A DNA stretch of 41,599 nt, taken from assembly GCA_035533095.1 (NCBI GenBank), contig DATLUM010000003.1:1-41599 (forward strand), in the 5' to 3' direction. Below, piece after piece: positions 2,197-11,127 of this stretch. A program made the translations under genes and the position numbers. Origin of the DNA: Acidimicrobiales bacterium (lineage in GTDB: Bacteria; Actinomycetota; Acidimicrobiia; Acidimicrobiales; Palsa-688). The notes under the pieces were generated by a model. The model searched no databases. It had not been told where the DNA came from and saw nothing but the letters and a program-made list of their open reading frames with translations. Numbering within the stretch: the stretch's first letter is position 1; every line of letters starts with the position of its first letter.

Positions 2197-3279
2197 TCAT
2201 CCCTGGAGTTGGCTGAGCACGGCGGTGACGGTGCGTTTGGTTCCGCTCTGGCTGACCAGGTCGACTGTGACCGTCTTGCCCGGTGCGAGTTGGGCCAGGA
2301 TGGCCTGCATCTCGGTGAGCGAGGTGACCTTGTTACCGTCGACGGCGGTGATGAGTTCGCCGGGAACGATCCCTGCGGTGGCTGCGCTGCCTCCCGCTGT
2401 GACGCTGACAACTATGGCGCCGACCCGCTGTCCGTTCTGGTCGACGGCGTCGGCCGCGGCGATGTCGAGTGAAGCTCGGTCGCTGCGGGTGACCCGGCCT
2501 GAGCTGATGAGTTGGGCGGCGATCAGCTTGACGGTGTTGGAGGGGATGGCAAAGCCGATCCCCGGTATGGTGCCTCCTCCTTGTTGATCGGCGGCCGCCA
2601 GGGTGGGGATGCCGATGACTTCCCCGGCCAGGTCGACCAACGCTCCGCCGCTGTTGCCGGGATTGATCGCTGCGCTCGTCTGGATGGTGGAGGGGAGCAC
2701 GACGCCGTTTCCTTCGCTGACCGGCCGGCCGTTGTAGCTGACGATTCCGTCGGTCACGGAGCTGGAAAGGCCCAGCGGGTTGCCGACAGCGAAGACGATG
2801 TCGCCTATCTGTAATGCGTCCGAATCGCCGAACGTCGCGGCGGCAAGGTTGCTGGCACCTTTGACCTTGATGACTGCCAGGTCGTCGGGGGCGTAGCTCC
2901 CGAGCAGAGTGGCCGGCAACCGATCACCGTTGAGGAGCTGCACCGTAAAGGTGGTGGCCGAGCCGACGACGTGGGCGTTGGTGACGATATCGCCTGCGTT
3001 GTCGTAGATCACCCCGGACCCGAGCCCGCTGGAGGTCGATATCTGTACGACCTGGGGGCGAACCTTCGCCACTACCGCCACGAAGGCCTGCTCTAGCTCG
3101 GATGCCGCTCTGCTGACGTTGGGCGACGCCGATTGGGTCGGGGTGGCGGTCGTCGTCGGGGACTGCAATGGGGTCGGGCCGCTTGACGCGCACGCTGCTA
3201 CTAAGCCGGTGAGGGCCACCAGCATCATCGAACTGATGACGCCATGAAGGTACGCCTTGCGCCTGAAGCGATGTGCCAC
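2197..3279 (-). CDS. HtrA/DegP-like trypsin-type serine protease, lipoprotein
   Basis: Predicted cell-envelope quality-control protease. A lipoprotein signal peptide ends in the lipobox V-A-A-C (Cys30), followed by a Ser/Thr/Pro-rich linker to about residue 58. The S1C protease domain shows His103 ('TNAHVVG'), Asp133 ('DDLAVIKV') and Ser210 ('NPGNSGGAL'). A single PDZ domain occupies about residues 265-355 ('SVTAGGSAATAGIVPGELITAVDG'). The start is a GTG at 3279; a TTGACA-like hexamer lies about 30 nt upstream (3309-3314). The next upstream gene is divergent, so this gene probably has its own promoter. All catalytic residues are present, so it should be active. Confidence 0.92.
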   Translation of the reverse strand: MAHRFRRKAYLHGVISSMMLVALTGLVAACASSGPTPLQSPTTTATPTQSASPNVSRAASELEQAFVAVVAKVRPQVVQISTSSGLGSGVIYDNAGDIVTNAHVVGSATTFTVQLLNGDRLPATLLGSYAPDDLAVIKVKGASNLAAATFGDSDALQIGDIVFAVGNPLGLSSSVTDGIVSYNGRPVSEGNGVVLPSTIQTSAAINPGNSGGALVDLAGEVIGIPTLAAADQQGGGTIPGIGFAIPSNTVKLIAAQLISSGRVTRSDRASLDIAAADAVDQNGQRVGAIVVSVTAGGSAATAGIVPGELITAVDGNKVTSLTEMQAILAQLAPGKTVTVDLVSQSGTKRTVTAVLSQLQG

Positions 3280-3384
3280 TGGTTCAACGATGCCTGTGCA
3301 GGTCGGTTGTCAACCAGGGCCGAAGGTCACCGAAACCTCTTCAGTCGGCCAGGTCGAGAGAAGCATCTGGCCGATCGAGCAGCC

Positions 3385-4107
3385 ATGAAGGCGAGAGCGA
3401 CCGGCGAGCAGGCGCCGGAGGAGTCTCTGGTGGGTGTCCCAGACGGGGCGCGCGACCAACCCGCCGAAGGCGTTGGTTATGGTCTAGGAGTGCTGCGGGC
3501 GGGACTTCGCATGCTCTGGCGGGCGCTGCCGGTTATCGGTACGACGACCGTCGTGCCGCTGCTGCTCTTCTACATTGCTATGGCCGCCGGATCCGTAGCG
3601 TGGGGGATCGGCGTGTCGGTGGCCTACGCGTACCTGACCGCCGGCTACCAGTACCTCCGCAGGCGCCGGGTGAGCGGCATGTTGCTCATGACGGTCCTGC
3701 TCGTGACCTTGCGTGCGGTGGGCGCGATTGCGTCCGGGCACGTGTTCGTCTACTTCGTGCTGCCTGTCGCAGAAACCGGCGTGTTCGGGCTTTTGTTCCT
3801 GGCGACGATGGCGACCAAGGAGCCCCTGATCGTCCGTCTCGCGCGTGACATGGTCCCTCATCTGGCGGATGACTTGGCGGGCCGGCGTGGCCTGGTCACC
3901 CGGCTGTCGCTGGTGTGGACGATCACCTACCTGGCCAGCGGGGCTACAACGCTGCTCATGTTGCTCTCGTTCTCCCTACCGGTGTACCTGGGCGCGCACC
4001 AACTCGCCGGCTGGATGTGGGTGGCCGCCGGGATCGGTGCCTCAGTGATGCTGTGCCGACGCCACGGGAGCGGGCTGCTCTCGGCGGCCTTCAGCTCTTT
4101 GGCCTGA
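3385..4107 (+). CDS. multi-pass membrane protein, VC0807-like
   Basis: A 240-residue integral membrane protein with about six hydrophobic segments, preceded by a polar N-terminus of some 45 residues. The arrangement 'VVPLLLFYIAM...WGIGVSVAYAYLTAGYQYLRRRRVSGMLLMT' with a basic loop after the second helix resembles the VC0807/DUF3159-type families; the function is unknown. I choose the ATG at 3385 because the longer reading from 3244 overlaps the 5' end and promoter of the divergent protease gene. It may share the intergenic control region with that protease. The family name is tentative. Confidence 0.65.
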   Translation: MKARATGEQAPEESLVGVPDGARDQPAEGVGYGLGVLRAGLRMLWRALPVIGTTTVVPLLLFYIAMAAGSVAWGIGVSVAYAYLTAGYQYLRRRRVSGMLLMTVLLVTLRAVGAIASGHVFVYFVLPVAETGVFGLLFLATMATKEPLIVRLARDMVPHLADDLAGRRGLVTRLSLVWTITYLASGATTLLMLLSFSLPVYLGAHQLAGWMWVAAGIGASVMLCRRHGSGLLSAAFSSLA

Positions 4108-4792
4108 ACCCCCCGACGGACCCACCGGGCGCCGTCGGTGACGCCGCAACGTGGCGCTGCTGCGCCGGTCGGTCGCAATCGAACAGCAGCCGGTGCACGT
4201 AGGAGCGCATGTCGCGCCTGGGAGGCGGGAAGTTACCCGCCAGACGTTTGGCAGCGAGTGGCAGCGCGAGTGAGGTTCCGAGGAGAAGCCCGTCGCGTCC
4301 CCGGCTCTTCCAGAGGACGAGGGGCAGCGCACCGATCGCGAGCGCGCAACCGGCTCCGGACTGTCGGGCAAGCCGGCCACCGCCCAGCCCTGCTCCGAGG
4401 ACGACGGCGCCTTCGGGCGCAGTGGCGAGACAAGCTCCCAACGCCACCGACACGCCTCGGCCCCCTTGAAGCCGCAGAAACGGCGACCAGTTGTGACCGG
4501 CGACCGCGGCGAACGCTGCGAGCGCTCCGAGGCGGGCGCCGCGCCTACGCGCCAGAAGCGGAACTGCAGCACCCTTGGCAAGTTCCATGCAACCGACTAC
4601 GGCGAGGGGACCGAAACCGGCTACCTGGTGCAGGCTGGTGCCCGAGACGGTCCCGGTGCCGACATTCCTCAGGTCCACACCCTCGAGCCGCCGGGCGGCG
4701 ATATTGGTGAACGGGGTCGAGCCCAGCAGGTAGGAGGCGACGATCAGCACAGGCGCTGGCAGGCGCCGGCAAGGGCCCTTGCGGCGTTTCAT
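4091..4792 (-). CDS. PlsY-like glycerol-3-phosphate acyltransferase, divergent
   Basis: PlsY transfers an acyl chain from acyl-phosphate to glycerol-3-phosphate in the membrane. The fold is recognisable: 'SYLLGSTPFTNIAARRLEGVDLRNVG', then 'MELAKGAAVPLLA', then 'AVAGHNWSPFLRLQGGRGVSVALG', with several hydrophobic helices. Two signature blocks differ from canonical PlsY: the glycine-rich motif usually near 'GSGNxGxTN' reads 'GTGTVSGTS', and 'GGKG' reads 'GGRG'. It could be a specialised paralog using another acceptor rather than the housekeeping enzyme. The ATG at 4792 lies 2 nt after the stop of the DegV gene, so the two are almost certainly co-translated. The C-terminus overlaps the convergent membrane-protein gene by 17 nt. 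Confidence 0.72.
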   Translation of the reverse strand: MKRRKGPCRRLPAPVLIVASYLLGSTPFTNIAARRLEGVDLRNVGTGTVSGTSLHQVAGFGPLAVVGCMELAKGAAVPLLARRRGARLGALAAFAAVAGHNWSPFLRLQGGRGVSVALGACLATAPEGAVVLGAGLGGGRLARQSGAGCALAIGALPLVLWKSRGRDGLLLGTSLALPLAAKRLAGNFPPPRRDMRSYVHRLLFDCDRPAQQRHVAASPTAPGGSVGGFRPKS

Positions 4793-4794
4793 AC

Positions 4795-5655
4795 TCAGGA
4801 ACCGGTTTCCGGCTCCCACCACCAAGCGAGTCCCCGCAGGTCCGGACCGGTGTGAGCGACCATCGCCGGACCGAACGGAGCGGCGAAACGAGTGACCGGC
4901 TCGACGACCTCGCAAACCGCAGCCAGCAGCTTCTCCGCTTCCTCCGGCGCTCCCACGTGCAGGCCGGCAACGTGGAGCCGGTGCCCCGGCCGCTTCGACT
5001 TTCGCCACGAGGAGATCATGAGATCGAACGCCGCGTTCGGCGAGAACACCGGCCGCATCGGCCGGACGTTGCCTCGGCGCAGCTCGAATACCGGGCGGAC
5101 CCCGACGGCGTTGCCGATCGCACCCAGAGGGCTTGGAACCCGTCCTCCCCGGATCAGGTACGTGAGATCGCCGACCTCTGCAACGAGCCGCACCCGGCGT
5201 CGCGCTTCGGACGCGGACCGGATGACTTCGTCGAACGGTGCGCCGTCGATCGCCGCCTGTGCGGCTGCCAGGACGACGAGACCTTCAGCGCCGGCAGCCG
5301 TTCCGCTGTCGATCACCTCCACCCGGGCATCGGTCATACCGGCGGCAAGCCGCGCCGAGTCACCGGTACTCGAGAACGACCCGCCCACTGTTATGACGAC
5401 AACCCCTCGGCCCTGGTCCGCTTCTTCGATCGCCGACAGGAAGGCGCCAGGAGTCGGGGCGGCTGTCTTGACCGTCGAGCCTTCGCGAACGAGCCGGGCA
5501 ACCTCGTCTATCCCGACGCTGTCGTCGGTGCAGGGGACCCCGTCGATGTCCAGTGACAACGGCGCTATCGCGACCCTACAGCTGCTGGCGAGATCCGGCG
5601 CGATCGATGCCGCGCTGTCAGTCACGACACCGACCACGATGCCCTCAGTACCCAT
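4795..5655 (-). CDS. DegV family fatty-acid-binding protein
   Basis: DegV proteins bind a single fatty acid; in Firmicutes (FakB) they present it to the kinase FakA to make acyl-phosphate. Here the N-terminal half carries 'VVTDSAASIAPDLA' and the conserved 'TAAPTPGAFLSAIE'; the loop that usually reads like 'SSGLSGTYQSA' is 'VGGSFSSTGDSARLA'; the C-terminal half has 'GDLTYLIRGGRVPSPLGAIG' and ends with 'GPAMVAHTGP', typical of the family. At 286 residues it is full length. It is immediately followed by the PlsY-like gene (2-nt gap), an arrangement that fits delivery of acyl groups to an acyltransferase. No FakA-type kinase is present in the window. Confidence 0.92.
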   Translation of the reverse strand: MGTEGIVVGVVTDSAASIAPDLASSCRVAIAPLSLDIDGVPCTDDSVGIDEVARLVREGSTVKTAAPTPGAFLSAIEEADQGRGVVVITVGGSFSSTGDSARLAAGMTDARVEVIDSGTAAGAEGLVVLAAAQAAIDGAPFDEVIRSASEARRRVRLVAEVGDLTYLIRGGRVPSPLGAIGNAVGVRPVFELRRGNVRPMRPVFSPNAAFDLMISSWRKSKRPGHRLHVAGLHVGAPEEAEKLLAAVCEVVEPVTRFAAPFGPAMVAHTGPDLRGLAWWWEPETGS

Positions 5656-5700
5656 GCCCGGGAAGCCAGAAACAAAGGGCGGTCACCGCGCACTCCGCCA

Positions 5701-6690
5701 TCATTCGCTCGCCCTCAGGCGGGCGGCTGCCACCCATCCGACGGCGACCAGCAGCCAGAAGCTCAAGCCGCGGTACAGGACGACTGCTGCGGTTGCCGGG
5801 GCAGCCGGGAGGTGCGAACGAGCGAGCATCGTGACGAGTCCCCCCTCAACGATACCTAGCCCGCCCGGTGTGATCGGGAGTTCGGCCAGCAATTGTGCGC
5901 CCGCATACACCACGAGAAGCGAGCTCCATGGCACGTGGATCCCGATGGCAAGGATCGCGCTGGCCAGAACGAACGTGTCGAGAATCCAGTTCGCCACGGC
6001 CGCTGACGCGCCGAGAGCCCAGACCCGAGGCTCCGGTCGGATGTCCTTCATCTCGGCGACCGCCTTCTGTGCGCGGTACAGCCGGGTCTGTATTGAGTCC
6101 GGAGCGTGCCGCTGCGTGAGGCGAATGGCCCGGTCCACGAGCTTCCCGAGAAGCTCGGTGCGCTGGAACAGCAAGGCCGCCAGCGCGGCGCCCACCATCA
6201 CAATCGCCAGCGGGCCGACCAGGATGTCGCGTAGCTCGCCGCCGACCACCACAGACCCTACGAAAGCGACCAGGGTCAGGGCTGCGAACGCGATGGCCCC
6301 GGCGGACAATTCCGCCCACGCGGCACCAACCCTGCTGGCCCCCACACGTCGATACTGGCGGAACACGTATCCCTCGGCGACGAGCACGCCCGCCGGGATC
6401 GACATCGCAACCGCGTTCGAGGCCAGCGTTATAGGGATCATGCGCGGAAAAGACACGGCCGTACCGGTGGCATCGATCAGCCGCTGCTGGAGCAGCGAGA
6501 GCGAGAGGATCGACAGAGCCTCGGCTGCGCCGCCGGCGAGCAACCACTCCCAATGGACGCCTACGACGAGGGATCCGACCGCGGCGAGTTTCGGGATCCT
6601 GCGTATGACGAACACGGCAGCCAGGGCCACCATGACGATTTCGAAGGCCCGCCTCGCCCAGAAGCGCCACCCTCTATGCCGATTCGGCAC
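5701..6690 (-). CDS. LPG-synthase-TM (UPF0104/AglD-like) membrane protein
   Basis: A polytopic membrane protein of the lysylphosphatidylglycerol synthetase TM / UPF0104 family, whose members are thought to flip or modify lipids. About eight hydrophobic segments are visible, with family features such as 'LASNAVAMSIPAGVLVAEGYVFRQYRRVG' and near the C-terminus 'LLAELPITPGGLGIVEGG', the best conserved block of the family. I place the start at the GTG at 6690 (329 residues), overlapping the 3' end of the hydrolase gene by 17 nt; translation upstream of it lies inside that gene and has no hydrophobic character. It is followed 45 nt later by the DegV gene, so the four genes may form one lipid-related operon. 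Confidence 0.83.
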   Translation of the reverse strand: MPNRHRGWRFWARRAFEIVMVALAAVFVIRRIPKLAAVGSLVVGVHWEWLLAGGAAEALSILSLSLLQQRLIDATGTAVSFPRMIPITLASNAVAMSIPAGVLVAEGYVFRQYRRVGASRVGAAWAELSAGAIAFAALTLVAFVGSVVVGGELRDILVGPLAIVMVGAALAALLFQRTELLGKLVDRAIRLTQRHAPDSIQTRLYRAQKAVAEMKDIRPEPRVWALGASAAVANWILDTFVLASAILAIGIHVPWSSLLVVYAGAQLLAELPITPGGLGIVEGGLVTMLARSHLPAAPATAAVVLYRGLSFWLLVAVGWVAAARLRASE

Positions 6691-7588
6691 GGAACGGTGT
6701 CGGCAGCTCGGTTCCCTCCGGACGGGGACCGCAGCGACTCGCCTGCACCCCCAGGACGTGCTCGCATGCCTCCAGGAGGACCGATGCAAAGTGGTCTGGG
6801 TCACTCAGGCAAGCGCTGTGCCCTCCGGACATCTCGAACACTCTTGCACCGCAGACACCTGCAAGATGGGCTTGCCTGTCGGTCGGGACGTGAACGTCGT
6901 CTGCCGTCAGGAGCACCGCCATCGGTGCCTGTATCTCTCCGATCCACTCGCTGGCATCGTAGGTAGCCAGATCCGCGGCAAGGTAGAGCACGTTGCTCCA
7001 GCGGTGGCGCCTCATCAAGGGCAACGCCCATCGTTGGAACCCGTCCCATCCGTATAGAAGTCGCATGATGGCTTCAGCGACCACAGCGGAGACCGCATCG
7101 GGCAGCATCGAGGCGAACCTGCAGATCCCGTTGAAGATCCGGGTCCAGCGCGCCGTGATCGGGACGGCCGTAAAGCGCGCTGCCGATGCGCACAGCACCA
7201 CTCCTGCGACCAGGTCATCGTGTTCACGGGCGAGACGCTGGGCGACAGCGCCACCGAGCGAGTACCCCACCACCGCCGCTGGCGCCAGGTCCAGCGTGCG
7301 GATGAGCGCTGCCACGTCCTCGACGACGTCGTCGAGGCTCGCCTTGCGCCCGTGTCGTGGTCCGAGGCCGTGGCCTCGCAGGTCGGGCGCGACCGCCCGG
7401 AAGTGCTCACCGAGGAGACCGAACACGCCGTACCAGGTGATGTCCGCGGTGGACGTCCAGCCGTGCAGAAGCACGACAGCAGGGGCGCCGGGGCGCCCCG
7501 GGGCCTCGCGGACGAACATTTCGCCTCGGGAGCCAACATCGACGAGACGACCTGCGGGGAGCCGCCAGTCGTCCGGCTTGGCTGTCAT
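6674..7588 (-). CDS. alpha/beta hydrolase
   Basis: A 304-residue alpha/beta-hydrolase-fold protein. The oxyanion motif 'LLHGWTSTADITW' is at about residues 40-52, the nucleophile elbow 'GYSLGG' contains Ser110, an acidic residue is found at Asp230/231 ('TADDVHVP') and the catalytic His257 is in 'GGHSAC'. The triad is intact, so an active esterase, lipase-like or C-C hydrolase enzyme is expected; substrate unknown. It heads a minus-strand group with the flippase-like protein, DegV and PlsY homologs, suggesting an acyl-lipid substrate. The C-terminal 35 residues are polar and lie outside the hydrolase fold. Confidence 0.88.
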   Translation of the reverse strand: MTAKPDDWRLPAGRLVDVGSRGEMFVREAPGRPGAPAVVLLHGWTSTADITWYGVFGLLGEHFRAVAPDLRGHGLGPRHGRKASLDDVVEDVAALIRTLDLAPAAVVGYSLGGAVAQRLAREHDDLVAGVVLCASAARFTAVPITARWTRIFNGICRFASMLPDAVSAVVAEAIMRLLYGWDGFQRWALPLMRRHRWSNVLYLAADLATYDASEWIGEIQAPMAVLLTADDVHVPTDRQAHLAGVCGARVFEMSGGHSACLSDPDHFASVLLEACEHVLGVQASRCGPRPEGTELPTPFRAESA

Positions 7589-7815
7589 ACCCGCGGGTTC
7601 CCGATCGCCGTTACCTCCTGGCCCTTTCGACTGGCCTGACTCGACCCGGGCTTGCGCTGGACCGACCCACCTAACCCCTCTTTACCGGACATACCCGCAA
7701 CATCCCTTCGGCATGCAGGGGCCCGAGAACGCTATTCGTGCCCACGCCGACACTGCATTTCCGATATGAATCTTCGCCTATTGAACCGCAGCCGGAGTAC
7801 CGAGAAGCTGAAGAC

Positions 7816-8226
7816 ATGCCCTCCGGTGATACGGGCGCGCCCGGCGACCAGCCGAGTAGAGACTTGACGACCAACGTCGAGGAACTGCGTGATGTCTCGA
7901 TCGTGCACGTGGCGGGCGAAATCGACATCAGCACCGTGGGCGACCTCGAATCGGCCATCGAGCGCGCCCGGGCCCACGCCGGACCGGGCGGTGCAGCGAG
8001 CGGCGTGGTCGTCATCGACCTGCGGGGCGTCACCTTCCTGGGGGCGGAAGGGTTGAGGAGTCTCGTCAGCGCCCAGAACCGGATAGCCGAGTCCGGCGGG
8101 TCGATGCGGGTGGTGGCGCCTGCAGGCGGCGGGATCATCCGGCGACTTCTCGACCTGAGTGGTGTCGGGGCCCTCCTGGACCTGTTCGAGACGATCGAGT
8201 CAGCTGTTCCTGCCGACCGGGACTGA
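7816..8226 (+). CDS. STAS-domain protein (anti-sigma factor antagonist-like), non-phosphorylatable
   Basis: A single STAS domain as in SpoIIAA/RsbV anti-anti-sigma factors. Visible blocks are 'VSIVHVAGEIDISTVGDLESAIE', 'GVVVIDLRGVTFLGAEGLRSLVSA' and 'RVVAPAGGGIIRRLLDLSGVGALLDLFET'. At the regulatory site SpoIIAA reads D57-S58-S59-G60; here the aligned residues are Gly76-Ala77-Glu78-Gly79, so the serine normally phosphorylated by the anti-sigma kinase is Ala. I start at the ATG at 7816 (136 residues) because the upstream in-frame stretch from the GTG at 7738 has about 50% GC at third positions, unlike the strongly GC-rich third positions downstream. No anti-sigma kinase or sigma partner is adjacent. 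Confidence 0.85.
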   Translation: MPSGDTGAPGDQPSRDLTTNVEELRDVSIVHVAGEIDISTVGDLESAIERARAHAGPGGAASGVVVIDLRGVTFLGAEGLRSLVSAQNRIAESGGSMRVVAPAGGGIIRRLLDLSGVGALLDLFETIESAVPADRD

Positions 8227-8419
8227 ACTCTGGTCCTGGTCGCTTGGGGGCCATCGAGCTGGCGGTGAGCACGAGCCTTCGGGGTAATCCAGACCCGGAT
8301 GCTGGCGACACAAACGAGGCTCAAGCGTGCGGCTCAAACCGTTGCTGGAGTACCGCATGGCCGGCGCGATCGGCGGGCACGCCCAGCCGGGGCTGTGCAG
8401 TTAGGCTCACAGCCTTAGA

Positions 8420-9247
8420 ATGGGTGAGCGAAGCGGAAGCGCAGCAGCCGCCTGGCGGCAGGCGCTCGAAGCGTGGGCCATCCCTCCTGAAATACTCGCC
8501 CGAGCTCCAGAGTCGCCGTGGGGATGCCCGAGAGCACTCTTCGAGAGAGCTGCGGCACATGCCCTTGCCACCACCACCGAGAGCCCGTCACGAGCGCGCG
8601 CCCGCGAGGCACTGCCACCGGGAGGATCGGTGTTGGATGTCGGCGCTGGCGCAGGCGCGGCCAGCTTGCCGCTCGTTCCGCCCGCGAGGACAGTGTTCGC
8701 AGTGGACGTGAGCGATGAGATGCTCCACGCCTTCGTGCAGGGAGCTGAGCGGGTGGGCGCCGAACACCGCGAGATCAAAGGCCAGTGGCCGGATACGGAG
8801 ATAGAAGCGCCGGTGACGGACGTTGCGGTCTGCCACCACGTCGCCTACAACGTCGCGAACCTGGCCGGACTTTTCGGCGCCCTCGACCGCCACGCAAGAC
8901 GGAGGGTCGTGGTGGAGCTGACAGAGCGGCACCCCCAAAGCGACCTCAACGATTTGTGGAAGCAGATCCACGGCATCGACAGACCGAGCGTGCCTACCGC
9001 AGACGACGCTGCCGCTGTCGCGGCGGAACTCGGGTTCGACGTCCAATTGGAGCGCTTCGAGCAAACGGCCCTCTGGCACGGCTCGGAGCGCGACGAGCGT
9101 GTCGCGTTCGCGCGACGGCGTTTGTGCGTCGGATCGGAATACGACCCCTTCATCAGCGAGTGGCTCGCCCGCTCCGGCGAAGAAGTACAGAACCGCAAGC
9201 TGGTCACCCTCTGGTGGGACAGCAGGTCCTGGCAGGGCGACTCATGA
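8420..9247 (+). CDS. class I SAM-dependent methyltransferase
   Basis: Predicted methyltransferase with a Rossmann SAM-binding core: motif I 'GGSVLDVGAGAGAASLPLV' at about residues 68-86, an acidic residue ending strand beta2 ('TVFAVDVSDEMLHAF'), and 'VTDVAVCHHVAYNVANLAGLF' as the motif IV region. An N-terminal helical extension of about 60 residues and a C-terminal polar region ending 'VTLWWDSRSW' are present; the substrate cannot be inferred. A TAGGCT box lies 12 nt before the ATG (8402-8407). It is followed 79 nt later by the HsaA-like monooxygenase on the same strand but that gene has its own operator, so they may be regulated separately. Confidence 0.85.
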   Translation: MGERSGSAAAAWRQALEAWAIPPEILARAPESPWGCPRALFERAAAHALATTTESPSRARAREALPPGGSVLDVGAGAGAASLPLVPPARTVFAVDVSDEMLHAFVQGAERVGAEHREIKGQWPDTEIEAPVTDVAVCHHVAYNVANLAGLFGALDRHARRRVVVELTERHPQSDLNDLWKQIHGIDRPSVPTADDAAAVAAELGFDVQLERFEQTALWHGSERDERVAFARRRLCVGSEYDPFISEWLARSGEEVQNRKLVTLWWDSRSWQGDS

Positions 9248-9309
9248 CATGCGGGCGGTCTCACTCTGCGCAACCGCTGCGCAGGATCCGCTTGACCAGA
9301 ACTCATTTC

Positions 9310-9324
9310 TAGAAAAAGATTCGA
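9310..9324 (+). promoter_or_regulatory. TetR operator copy 1, before the monooxygenase gene
   Basis: The 15-mer TAGAAAAAGATTCGA sits 2 nt before the ATG of the HsaA-like gene. It matches the palindromic site in front of the tetR gene at 13 of 15 positions (TAGAAAAA, then ATTC and the final A are shared). An AT-rich motif of this kind is conspicuous in very GC-rich DNA. Binding by the neighbouring TetR protein, blocking initiation, is inference. Confidence 0.6.
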
Positions 9325-9326
9325 AC

Positions 9327-10526
9327 ATGCGTGAATTCGTCCATCCCGCCATCAACGCGCTTCGCGACGCCGGTCCCGAGCTGAAGGCGCAGGCCGCCGT
9401 CAACACCGAGGAACGCCGACTGTCGGACGCCACGGCGAAGATCCTCCGGGACACGGGCGCCATGCGCCTGGTTCAGCCGGCACGCTACGGAGGCCTGGAA
9501 GCCGACCCGAGAGTGTTCGTCGAGGCGATGATGCTGGCGTCTCAGTTCGACGGCGCTGCCGGGTGGGTCCTCGGAGTGGTAGGGGTTCACAACTGGCACA
9601 TCGGCCTCTACGCCGACGAGGTGCAGAAGGAAGTCTGGGGTGATGACCACGACACCTGGGTCAGCTCCTCCTACAACTACGTCGGCAAGGCCAGCCGCGT
9701 GCAAGGGGGCTTCAGGCTCACGGGACGCTGGTCCTTCTCCTCGGGATGTGAGCATGCCCGATGGGTGTTCGTCGGTGGATTCGTATTCGACGACGAAGGT
9801 CGCCCTCTGGAGATGCGCCACTTCCTCCTCCCGCGCCAGGACTACGAGATCGTTGACGTGTGGCACGTCGCCGGGCTGTGCGGCTCCGGAAGCAACGACA
9901 TCGTCGTCGACGGCGCCTTCGTCCCCGATGCGAGGAGCATGAGCTGGCCCGACCTCAAGGCACACAATTGTCCCGGGACCGAGGTGAACCGGTCCGCGCT
10001 GTTCCGGGTGCCGTGGGGATCCATGTTCCTCAACGCGGTGACAGCACCCCTCGTCGGGATGGCCCGGGGGATGCTCGACGAGTCGGTCGCCCTGGTCAAG
10101 CAGCGGGTGAGCGGATACGTCCCGCCCGGACCCTCCACGGGGCCTTTCGACGCCAAGCGCATATGGCCGGCTGTCACGATGGCGAGGCTGGCCGAGGCCT
10201 CGGCTGAGGTGGACGCGGCAAGAGTGCAGATGCTCGACAACCTCGGCGACGTCTACTCCTACGCCGAGACGGGCGAAGAGGTGCCCCTGGACGTTCGCGC
10301 CCGTGCCCGGCGGGACCAGGTGATGGCGGCCAAGAGGGCGACAGACGCCGCCAACTCAATCTTCTCGCTCGCCGGCGGGCGGGGTCTGTCCTTGAAGAGC
10401 CCCATTCAGCGGTTGTGGAGGGACGCCCAGGCCGGTGCTCACCACGTAGTGAACGGCGCCGACCAGGCCCTCACTTCTTACGGCGCGTTCCTGATCGGTG
10501 AGGAGATCGAAGATCAGCTGGTCTGA
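9327..10526 (+). CDS. HsaA-like flavin-dependent monooxygenase (acyl-CoA dehydrogenase fold)
   Basis: Oxygenase component of the two-component FMNH2-dependent type; the closest relatives I recognise are HsaA (3-HSA hydroxylase of steroid degradation) and related phenol hydroxylases. The acyl-CoA-dehydrogenase-like fold is visible: N-terminal helical domain with 'GAMRLVQPARYGGLEADPRVFVEA', middle beta domain 'GGFRLTGRWSFSSGCEHARWVFVGG', then 'VAGLCGSGSNDIVVDGAFVP', and the C-terminal helical domain with 'SLAGGRGLSLKSPIQRLWRDAQAGAHH'. The 399-residue length fits the family. No flavin reductase partner (HsaB-like) is in the window. The 3' end overlaps the convergent tetR gene by 56 nt. Steroid substrate is possible but unproven; hence no gene symbol. 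Confidence 0.82.
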   Translation: MREFVHPAINALRDAGPELKAQAAVNTEERRLSDATAKILRDTGAMRLVQPARYGGLEADPRVFVEAMMLASQFDGAAGWVLGVVGVHNWHIGLYADEVQKEVWGDDHDTWVSSSYNYVGKASRVQGGFRLTGRWSFSSGCEHARWVFVGGFVFDDEGRPLEMRHFLLPRQDYEIVDVWHVAGLCGSGSNDIVVDGAFVPDARSMSWPDLKAHNCPGTEVNRSALFRVPWGSMFLNAVTAPLVGMARGMLDESVALVKQRVSGYVPPGPSTGPFDAKRIWPAVTMARLAEASAEVDAARVQMLDNLGDVYSYAETGEEVPLDVRARARRDQVMAAKRATDAANSIFSLAGGRGLSLKSPIQRLWRDAQAGAHHVVNGADQALTSYGAFLIGEEIEDQLV

Positions 10527-11127
10527 GCGCCTCCCAAGCCGTGCCCGACAGCTCGAGAGAGGCGGAGCGAACCGCCGCCTGCGACGGCACGCCCCGGTAC
10601 AGGGCGGAACGAACCCAGTGGTGCACAGGCCCGATGAGCACCGCGGTGACCGTCTCGAAGGGGAGCTTGCGTAGCTCGCCGCCGGCCATCCGTTTGTCGA
10701 GCCATCCCTTCACGACGGCCAGGAACTCGGCGTTCTCGTCGAGAAGCTCGGCGGCGACGTCGTCCGAGCGGTAGCCGGCGAATGGATGCTGCAGCAGGAA
10801 GGTCGCCGGGCGGGGATGCCTGACGAGCCAGCGGAGGTGATAGTCGACAGTATCTTTGATCCCGAGTTCAGCACGAGGGTCCGCCGCGAGGATGGCTCCG
10901 GCACCGGACTGATAATCGTTGAGCAGGCTGTAATGCAGGGTCGCCAGCAGGAGATCCTTGGATCCGAAGTGATGGTAGAGGGTGCCGACGCTCACGCCGG
11001 CACGGGCGCACACCTTTTGGACGAACATTCCGGACTCGCCGGTCTCCACTATCGTGTCGAGGGCAGCCGCGAGGATGTCCGCCCGGCGGCGTAAGGTCTT
11101 GCGGGTTCGCCCCCCGGCGGTGACCAT
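10471..11127 (-). CDS. TetR family transcriptional regulator
   Basis: A 218-residue TetR repressor. The N-terminal helix-turn-helix domain is clear: 'RRADILAAALDTIVETGESGMFVQKVCARAGVSVGTLYHHFGSKDLLLATLH' at about residues 14-65. The C-terminal ligand domain contains 'RHPRPATFLLQHPFAGYRSDDVAAELLDENAEFL'. Its ATG directly abuts a perfect-arm palindrome (11128-11142) that recurs before the monooxygenase gene, supporting autoregulation plus control of that gene. The 3' end overlaps the monooxygenase by 56 nt. The ligand is unknown; a steroid or aromatic intermediate, or its CoA ester, would fit the context. Confidence 0.93.
   Translation of the reverse strand: MVTAGGRTRKTLRRRADILAAALDTIVETGESGMFVQKVCARAGVSVGTLYHHFGSKDLLLATLHYSLLNDYQSGAGAILAADPRAELGIKDTVDYHLRWLVRHPRPATFLLQHPFAGYRSDDVAAELLDENAEFLAVVKGWLDKRMAGGELRKLPFETVTAVLIGPVHHWVRSALYRGVPSQAAVRSASLELSGTAWEALRPADLRSPHRSGTRRKK

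Follow-up and report, generated by a model that had tools for sequence, protein, structure and literature searches.

The stretch analyzed here is a 41,599-nucleotide (nt) window from an Acidimicrobiales bacterium (GenBank assembly GCA_035533095.1, contig DATLUM010000003.1; G000:C3 in our set, where G000 is the main genome), which carries on its minus strand a run of four genes for an alpha/beta hydrolase, a flippase-like membrane protein, a DegV protein, and a divergent membrane acyltransferase of the PlsY family. We lean, with some reserve, toward reading the run as a version, with its genes reordered, of a cassette that is conserved in actinobacteria and built around an acyl-phosphate-dependent acyltransferase of PlsY fold that is fed by fatty-acid kinase and whose acceptor is probably not glycerol-3-phosphate. 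Among the families concerned, DegV/FakB binds fatty acid, FakA makes acyl-phosphate, and PlsY uses it. The occurrence of DegV beside a divergent PlsY with changed acceptor residues in many actinobacteria suggests a little-known route by which fatty acids would be placed onto a nonstandard lipid.

In the route that we propose, a free fatty acid, perhaps freed by the hydrolase, would bind DegV; FakA, whose gene lies apart from the cassette in this genome and within it or next to it in some relatives, would phosphorylate the bound fatty acid to give the acyl-phosphate; the divergent PlsY would then take the acyl-phosphate and acylate an acceptor probably other than glycerol-3-phosphate; and the flippase-like protein, or in other genomes a transporter of the major facilitator superfamily (MFS), would carry a lipid, either the substrate or the product, across the membrane. 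We infer each catalytic step and the acceptor from the gene content, conserved linkage, predicted fold, and residue pattern observed here. Passage from the second to the third step is supported as chemistry by the FakA/FakB system of B. subtilis, which feeds PlsY in vitro according to the available portion of PMC13400652. An initial sequence-only reading of the window had fatty acid passing from DegV to the acyltransferase; taken as transfer of an activated fatty acid, the idea is well motivated by the conserved gene pair and by the recurrence of FakA, hydrolases, and a transporter. To our knowledge, most work on fatty-acid kinase has been done in Firmicutes, in which its acyl-phosphate product goes to PlsY or PlsX, and the acyltransferase would, if the reading is right, be the first PlsY-fold enzyme that we know of with an acceptor other than glycerol phosphate. 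By linking a PlsY with an altered acceptor pocket to DegV, and to FakA as well in several lineages, the conserved cluster offers a direct, testable lead to how actinobacteria use acyl-phosphate; it also predicts an acyl acceptor that is new to the PlsY fold.

Linkage of DegV and FakA to divergent PlsY-family genes

The PlsY-like gene of the window (4091..4792, minus strand, ATG start at 4792), whose type we call class A, matches PF02660 at 79.3 bits (cut-off 24.1). The adjoining gene for a DegV/FakB-type fatty-acid-binding protein (4795..5655, minus strand) matches PF02645 at 175.8 bits (cut-off 27) and TIGR00762 at 183.7 bits (cut-off 99.7), and these coordinates bear out the 2-nt gap first reported between the two. 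A set of 61 related genomes yielded 50 PF02660 matches, 14 of them canonical by their active-site residues (L003-L016) and the other 36, the window included, noncanonical. When PF02660 and DegV coordinates were compared by eye, DegV was found near 30 of the 36 noncanonical matches and near none of the 14 canonical ones. The two genes lie within about 350 bases of each other in 28 pairs, within 1.3 kb in G055, and within 1.8 kb in G014. Six noncanonical matches had no DegV nearby: G056:C20, G037:C1:736050, G007:C54, G048:C181, G055:C136 (a partial match), and G032:C416 (L017), which resembles a second divergent type, class B, and sits on a 4-kb contig. In relatives, the usual order is the PlsY-like gene followed by DegV; DegV comes first in the window, G033, and G014.

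A genome scan with a class A alignment gave 118 relatives, the best 80 of which we refer to as named loci; they are phylogenetically nonindependent. Most carry the title Acidimicrobiia, Acidimicrobiales, or unresolved Actinobacteria/Actinomycetes, and a few Acidobacteria or Thermoanaerobacterales; Mycolicibacterium xanthum and Acrocarpospora phusangensis are also represented. A DegV gene accompanies the PlsY-like gene in 67 of the 80, downstream on the same strand in 62 and on the opposite strand in five. Between the PlsY-like gene and the 62 downstream DegVs, the modeled genes number none in 29 loci, one MFS gene in 28, an LPG_synthase_TM gene in four, and two MFS matches in one. A weak DegV-model match seen in this interval in many loci was considered as a second DegV and rejected, the gene being an MFS transporter. 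Among the 13 loci without DegV, seven end within 1.6 kb downstream (L116, L117, L125, L131, L156, L159, and L163) and L147 ends at 1.8 kb; DegV was not found in L104, L120, L137, L165, and L167 despite more downstream room. We note that L165, from Acrocarpospora phusangensis, holds two class A PlsY-like genes close together (6977-8852) and no DegV within the locus. The sequence-only reading had treated the four genes as a module. The link between DegV and the PlsY-like gene stands, and hydrolases, a flippase-type or MFS gene, and sometimes FakA recur near the two; the exact order does not recur in relatives, so we reject the four-gene order as the conserved unit in favor of the pair, DegV close to a divergent PlsY.

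FakA had been noted as absent, which is correct for the window and incorrect for the genome: a FakA gene lies at C50:154356-155957 (542.7 bits, cut-off 396.1), so we reject a real absence. Its presence removes the main puzzle of that reading, a missing FakA, although this gene adjoins none of the genome's three DegV genes. FakA was found in 56 of the 61 related genomes, and nine loci have a FakA-model match inside the cluster or next to it: L115, L122, L133, L169, L179, and, within 5 kb in the phylum-wide set described below, L225, L226, L236, and L281. The kinase family of the L122 cluster was identified as FakA by its PF13684, PF02734, and PF21645 matches. The order is FakA, PlsY-like, DegV in L122 and L133, and PlsY-like, DegV, FakA in L169; in L179 (Mycolicibacterium xanthum, 6986-10811), the PlsY-like gene, FakA, and a hydrolase are followed by DegV on the other strand. 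No FakA match besides the cluster copy was found in the genomes that hold L115, L122, L133, and L169, whose completeness is not given. The L115 gene is truncated and scores below the FakA cut-off, as does the cluster copy of Mycolicibacterium xanthum, which has a second FakA elsewhere. Five other named genomes tested (L134, L142, L153, L165, and L180) have a single FakA away from the cluster. As a separate observation, L236 (8642-9240; G121, a one-contig genome) has a PlsY-like gene split over two frames, with MFS, hydrolase, FakA, and DegV matches together.

Fold and active-site residues of the PlsY-like and DegV proteins

An AlphaFold2 model of the window PlsY-like protein (predicted local distance difference test score 88, predicted template modeling score 0.84) matches PlsY entries 5xj5-5xj8 best among solved folds (template modeling score 0.66-0.69 by query; Z about 22 over 181-185 residues), and all fold matches above Z 8 are PlsY entries. 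Against TIGR00023, the PlsY equivalog, the protein scores 58.3 bits, below the cut-off of 137.2, which agrees with its early labeling as divergent. In Aquifex PlsY, as described in the available portion of PMC5700162, acyl-phosphate is held by T41 and H92. Glycerol-3-phosphate sits with its phosphate clamped by S35, R45, K104, and N180 and its 2-OH bound to S142 and H177; among the mutants reported there, no substitute for H177 worked.

We compared 80 class A proteins (79 from the named loci plus the window) in Aquifex numbering. The residues for acyl-phosphate are kept: position 41 is T in 71 and S in 9, and H92, G102, and G103 are present in 80/80. H177 is kept in 0/80, K104R and N37T are found in 80/80, and position 35 varies (T in 44, S in 26). 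The window protein retains T41, H92, and the GG-x-G loop, reading GGRG; its glycerol-3-phosphate pocket positions S35, R45, K104, S142, H177, and N180 read T, Q, R, C, L, and N. H177, K104, R45, and N180 are all kept in 14/14 canonical relatives. With residues for recognition of glycerol-3-phosphate gone or altered, plain synthesis of lysophosphatidic acid from that acceptor is a doubtful role for the enzyme. In a quick tree with 28 class A proteins sampled, class B forms one group (Shimodaira-Hasegawa-like approximate likelihood ratio test 100), and a second group (98) unites class A with two phylum members.

A phylum-wide set of 60 regions around PlsY-family matches (L225-L284) was scored for DegV within 5 kb. 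Twenty of these regions were chosen after short flanks had been seen, with a visible DegV among the reasons for taking G331, G160, G264, and G100; the other 40 were taken roughly down the list, with some entries skipped and neighbors not known beforehand. DegV was found near none of the 36 H177-bearing PlsY genes and near 20 of the 31 PlsY-like genes that lack H177, a count in which an alignment gap is taken as absence. Loci with R104 and no H177 have DegV in 15 of 17 cases, the exceptions being L229 and L258, and those with K104 and no H177 have it in 0 of 7. The 40 neighbor-blind regions include three loci with R104 and no H177, of which two have DegV (L256 and L281) and L258 has none. Two further observations come from this set. 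In L227, L228, L234, L235, and L244 (phylum family f50), several PlsY-like genes stand in tandem or close to a single DegV. L250, L255, L262, and L272 represent a further divergent PlsY type in which W replaces T41; their genomes measure 1.3-1.7 Mb, and no DegV lies within 5 kb.

The DegV protein of the window was read against FakB residue roles given in the available portions of PMC9136124 and PMC8892158. Its T64, S95, R172, and H268 keep the carboxylate-site residues and the equivalent of catalytic Arg173, and the protein shares with S. aureus FakB2 a G at the position of Ser171. It scores 63.4 bits against the FakB1 equivalog NF038249 (cut-off 350), a model that covers one FakB type. Among 64 DegVs from class A loci, the T62 position is T in 50 and S in 14, S95 is found in 61, and R173 in 61. 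Three DegV groups separate in a quick tree except for L102 and L179, the latter, from Mycolicibacterium, being on a long branch and of unsure place. Judging from these residues, and from the Arg205 counts given below, the DegVs of class A loci seem fit to bind a fatty acid and present it, with the contact to FakA or to the membrane changed.

Lipid genes of the source genome and competing explanations

A number of observations weigh against a cassette of this kind with a changed acceptor. In the parts of PMC5700162 available, K104R of Aquifex PlsY keeps 25% activity with Km little affected, and S35T keeps 17%. Four PlsYs of the phylum-wide set (L270, L274, L276, and L282) keep H177 yet carry R104, with no DegV near. 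From these two facts, K104R alone says little, and the case for a changed acceptor rests mainly on the loss of H177. R45 is kept in 41/80 class A proteins, N180 in 79/80, and R176 and R183 in 80/80; with the last three retained, the pocket may yet take an acceptor that bears a phosphate, conceivably glycerol-3-phosphate itself in another binding mode. The 12 class B proteins keep N37 and K104, with S or T at 35, lack H177 and N180, and have T41 in 1/12, and so class B does not fit a pattern of donor site kept and acceptor site lost. On the DegV side, Arg205 of FakB is reported to be completely conserved and key for FakA and membrane binding (PMC8892158, as far as the available portion goes). 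Its equivalent in the window is F, and class A-locus DegVs have R205 in 18/64 and H270 in 45/64 (19 without), compared with 34/35 and 35/35 in other DegVs. In two relatives, the MFS protein has TIGR00900 as its best match (99.7 bits, short of the 319.6 cut-off) and PRK08633 as a weak one; with no match to the LplT equivalog, we rejected the MFS gene as an LplT member. Finally, the source genome, 96.8% complete, has neither a canonical PlsY nor a GPAT_C PlsB match, so that the window protein could be its glycerol-3-phosphate acyltransferase.

This last point is the core of the strongest competing explanation, which we consider rather unlikely: that the protein is the plain glycerol-3-phosphate acyltransferase of the genome, a diverged PlsY that makes lysophosphatidic acid and is fed by PlsX and FakA/DegV. 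A second, canonical PlsY had been proposed as something to look for, and none was found in the source genome; the window gene is its only PF02660 match, alongside one PlsX, the FakA, three DegV genes, and six PF01553 matches. The retained PlsY fold, acyl-phosphate residues, and N180, together with the activity of the K104R mutant, are also what this explanation expects. Set against it is H177, without a working substitute in the PlsY paper as far as available and absent throughout class A. Furthermore, near-complete G006, G042, G044, G050, and G052 match PlsX and FakA but have neither a PF02660 nor a GPAT_C match, so another enzyme in that order must be able to do the job of PlsY and make lysophosphatidic acid, perhaps a PF01553 protein; the DegV/PlsY-like cassette bears on this gap. 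A canonical PlsY occurs alongside class B in G037, G046, and G057, with no clear such case for class A; the second PF02660 match in G055 is partial and unclassified.

Less probable still is fatty-acid buffering or storage, in which DegV and the PlsY-like protein would trap fatty acids as a neutral lipid or glycolipid for export by the transporter. An MFS or flippase-like gene does recur in the cluster, and hydrolases of unassigned substrate surround the pair, but no glycosyltransferase or storage-lipid family was found among the representative neighbors scanned, which are a subset of all neighbors. That the neighborhood reflects inherited linkage without shared function seems to us very improbable. 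Many loci do come from related, nonindependent genomes with further neighbors in common (MerR, nuclease, and glycine-cleavage genes). However, the pair persists in different contexts (MerR/GcvT/GcvP/RodZ; DUF2017-ClpS-CtaA; AIRS and M24-peptidase genes), in both gene orders and several orientations, and in two PlsY/DegV types, both of which are carried by G051 and G058 as two pairs each, one of class A and one of class B. The pairing was also not seen with any H177-bearing PlsY of the phylum-wide set.

Known systems and neighboring genes

Returning to the fatty-acid-kinase-fed cassette, a tentative extension, and one that we would not yet bet on, is that the acceptor is a lyso-lipid and that lipid re-acylation is the task of the cassette, in the manner of LplT-Aas of Gram-negative bacteria, in which case the cassette would be an acyl-phosphate counterpart of that system. 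It is similarly possible, though short of probable, that FakA/DegV-driven re-acylation of a lyso-lipid or another acceptor that is not glycerol-3-phosphate, with a dedicated flippase or MFS transporter, extends across the actinobacteria. Fatty-acid activation is a third role of Aas that the cassette would parallel. By analogy, LplT-Aas (Gram-negative lysophospholipid remodeling; PMC11416262, available portion) is the closest functional parallel, a lipid transporter and an acyltransferase in roles that agree on paper, and not a homologous system: the protein families differ, the acyl-phosphate chemistry of the cassette is proposed from sequence, the MFS proteins of relatives do not match LplT, and the window has LPG_synthase_TM instead.

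The window type resembles PlsY of the PlsX/PlsY pathway (Aquifex PlsY, 5xj5-5xj9) in its predicted fold, its acyl-phosphate threonine and histidine, and its GGxG loop, and differs in K104R, N37T, the loss of H177, a variable R45, the nearby DegV, and the sub-cut-off TIGR00023 score. According to the available text of PMC13400652, PlsY uses both stereo-forms of glycerol-phosphate, so some latitude toward the acceptor is not new. Like Firmicutes FakA/FakB, the cassette has a DegV with carboxylate-site residues and the catalytic arginine, and a FakA in the genome (in or beside the cluster in the nine other loci); unlike that system, its FakB-type protein is positionally tied to one acyltransferase and Arg205 is mostly replaced. 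The open-access literature searched, seen in part, yielded no description of a DegV/PlsY-like cluster in these bacteria, which is no proof of its being unpublished.

The flippase-like gene of the window (5701..6690, minus strand) lies 45 nt from DegV and matches PF03706 (85.9 bits, cut-off 33.4) and TIGR00374 (62.5 bits). As with MprF and other LPG_synthase_TM flippases, the window protein and those of L113 and L119, which show that the gene occurs near the pair in relatives too, belong to PF03706; unlike MprF, the window protein reaches 47 bits against the MprF equivalog cut-off of 600 and matches the TM-region family alone. The hydrolase gene (6674..7588, minus strand) matches PF00561 (80.1 bits, cut-off 25.8) and has a G-Y-S-L-G-G nucleophile motif recognized by eye. 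All four genes are hence present on one strand and in the families first assigned to them, with profile matches above cut-offs. The reported 17-nt overlap between hydrolase and flippase-like genes holds with the GTG start at 6690, and its value depends on the start chosen: other in-frame starts lie at 6804, 6789, and 6633, a codon-based gene caller picked 6633, and homologous N-termini plausibly favor 6690.

An MFS or LPG_synthase_TM gene is found in 54 of the 80 named loci, the two never together. An alpha/beta hydrolase family (c20) recurs in 24 of the 80. Its model does not match the window hydrolase, whose own family was found in 0/80, a weak test with a single-sequence model. L104, L105, L136, L153, and L076 have near the pair a large membrane protein (c27) with an S-E-G-A motif that resembles, by eye, a hydrolase nucleophile; two members scanned gave no Pfam match over cut-off. 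A DUF3159-like gene is found in 34/80. In the window, the gene for this membrane protein of the DUF3159/VC0807-like family (3244..4107, plus strand) is convergent with the PlsY-like gene, which it overlaps by 17 nt, and has a weak, subthreshold IspA match; family members in relatives match PF11361 at 36.9 bits (cut-off 34.2) and VC0807_fam at 89.2 bits (cut-off 65).

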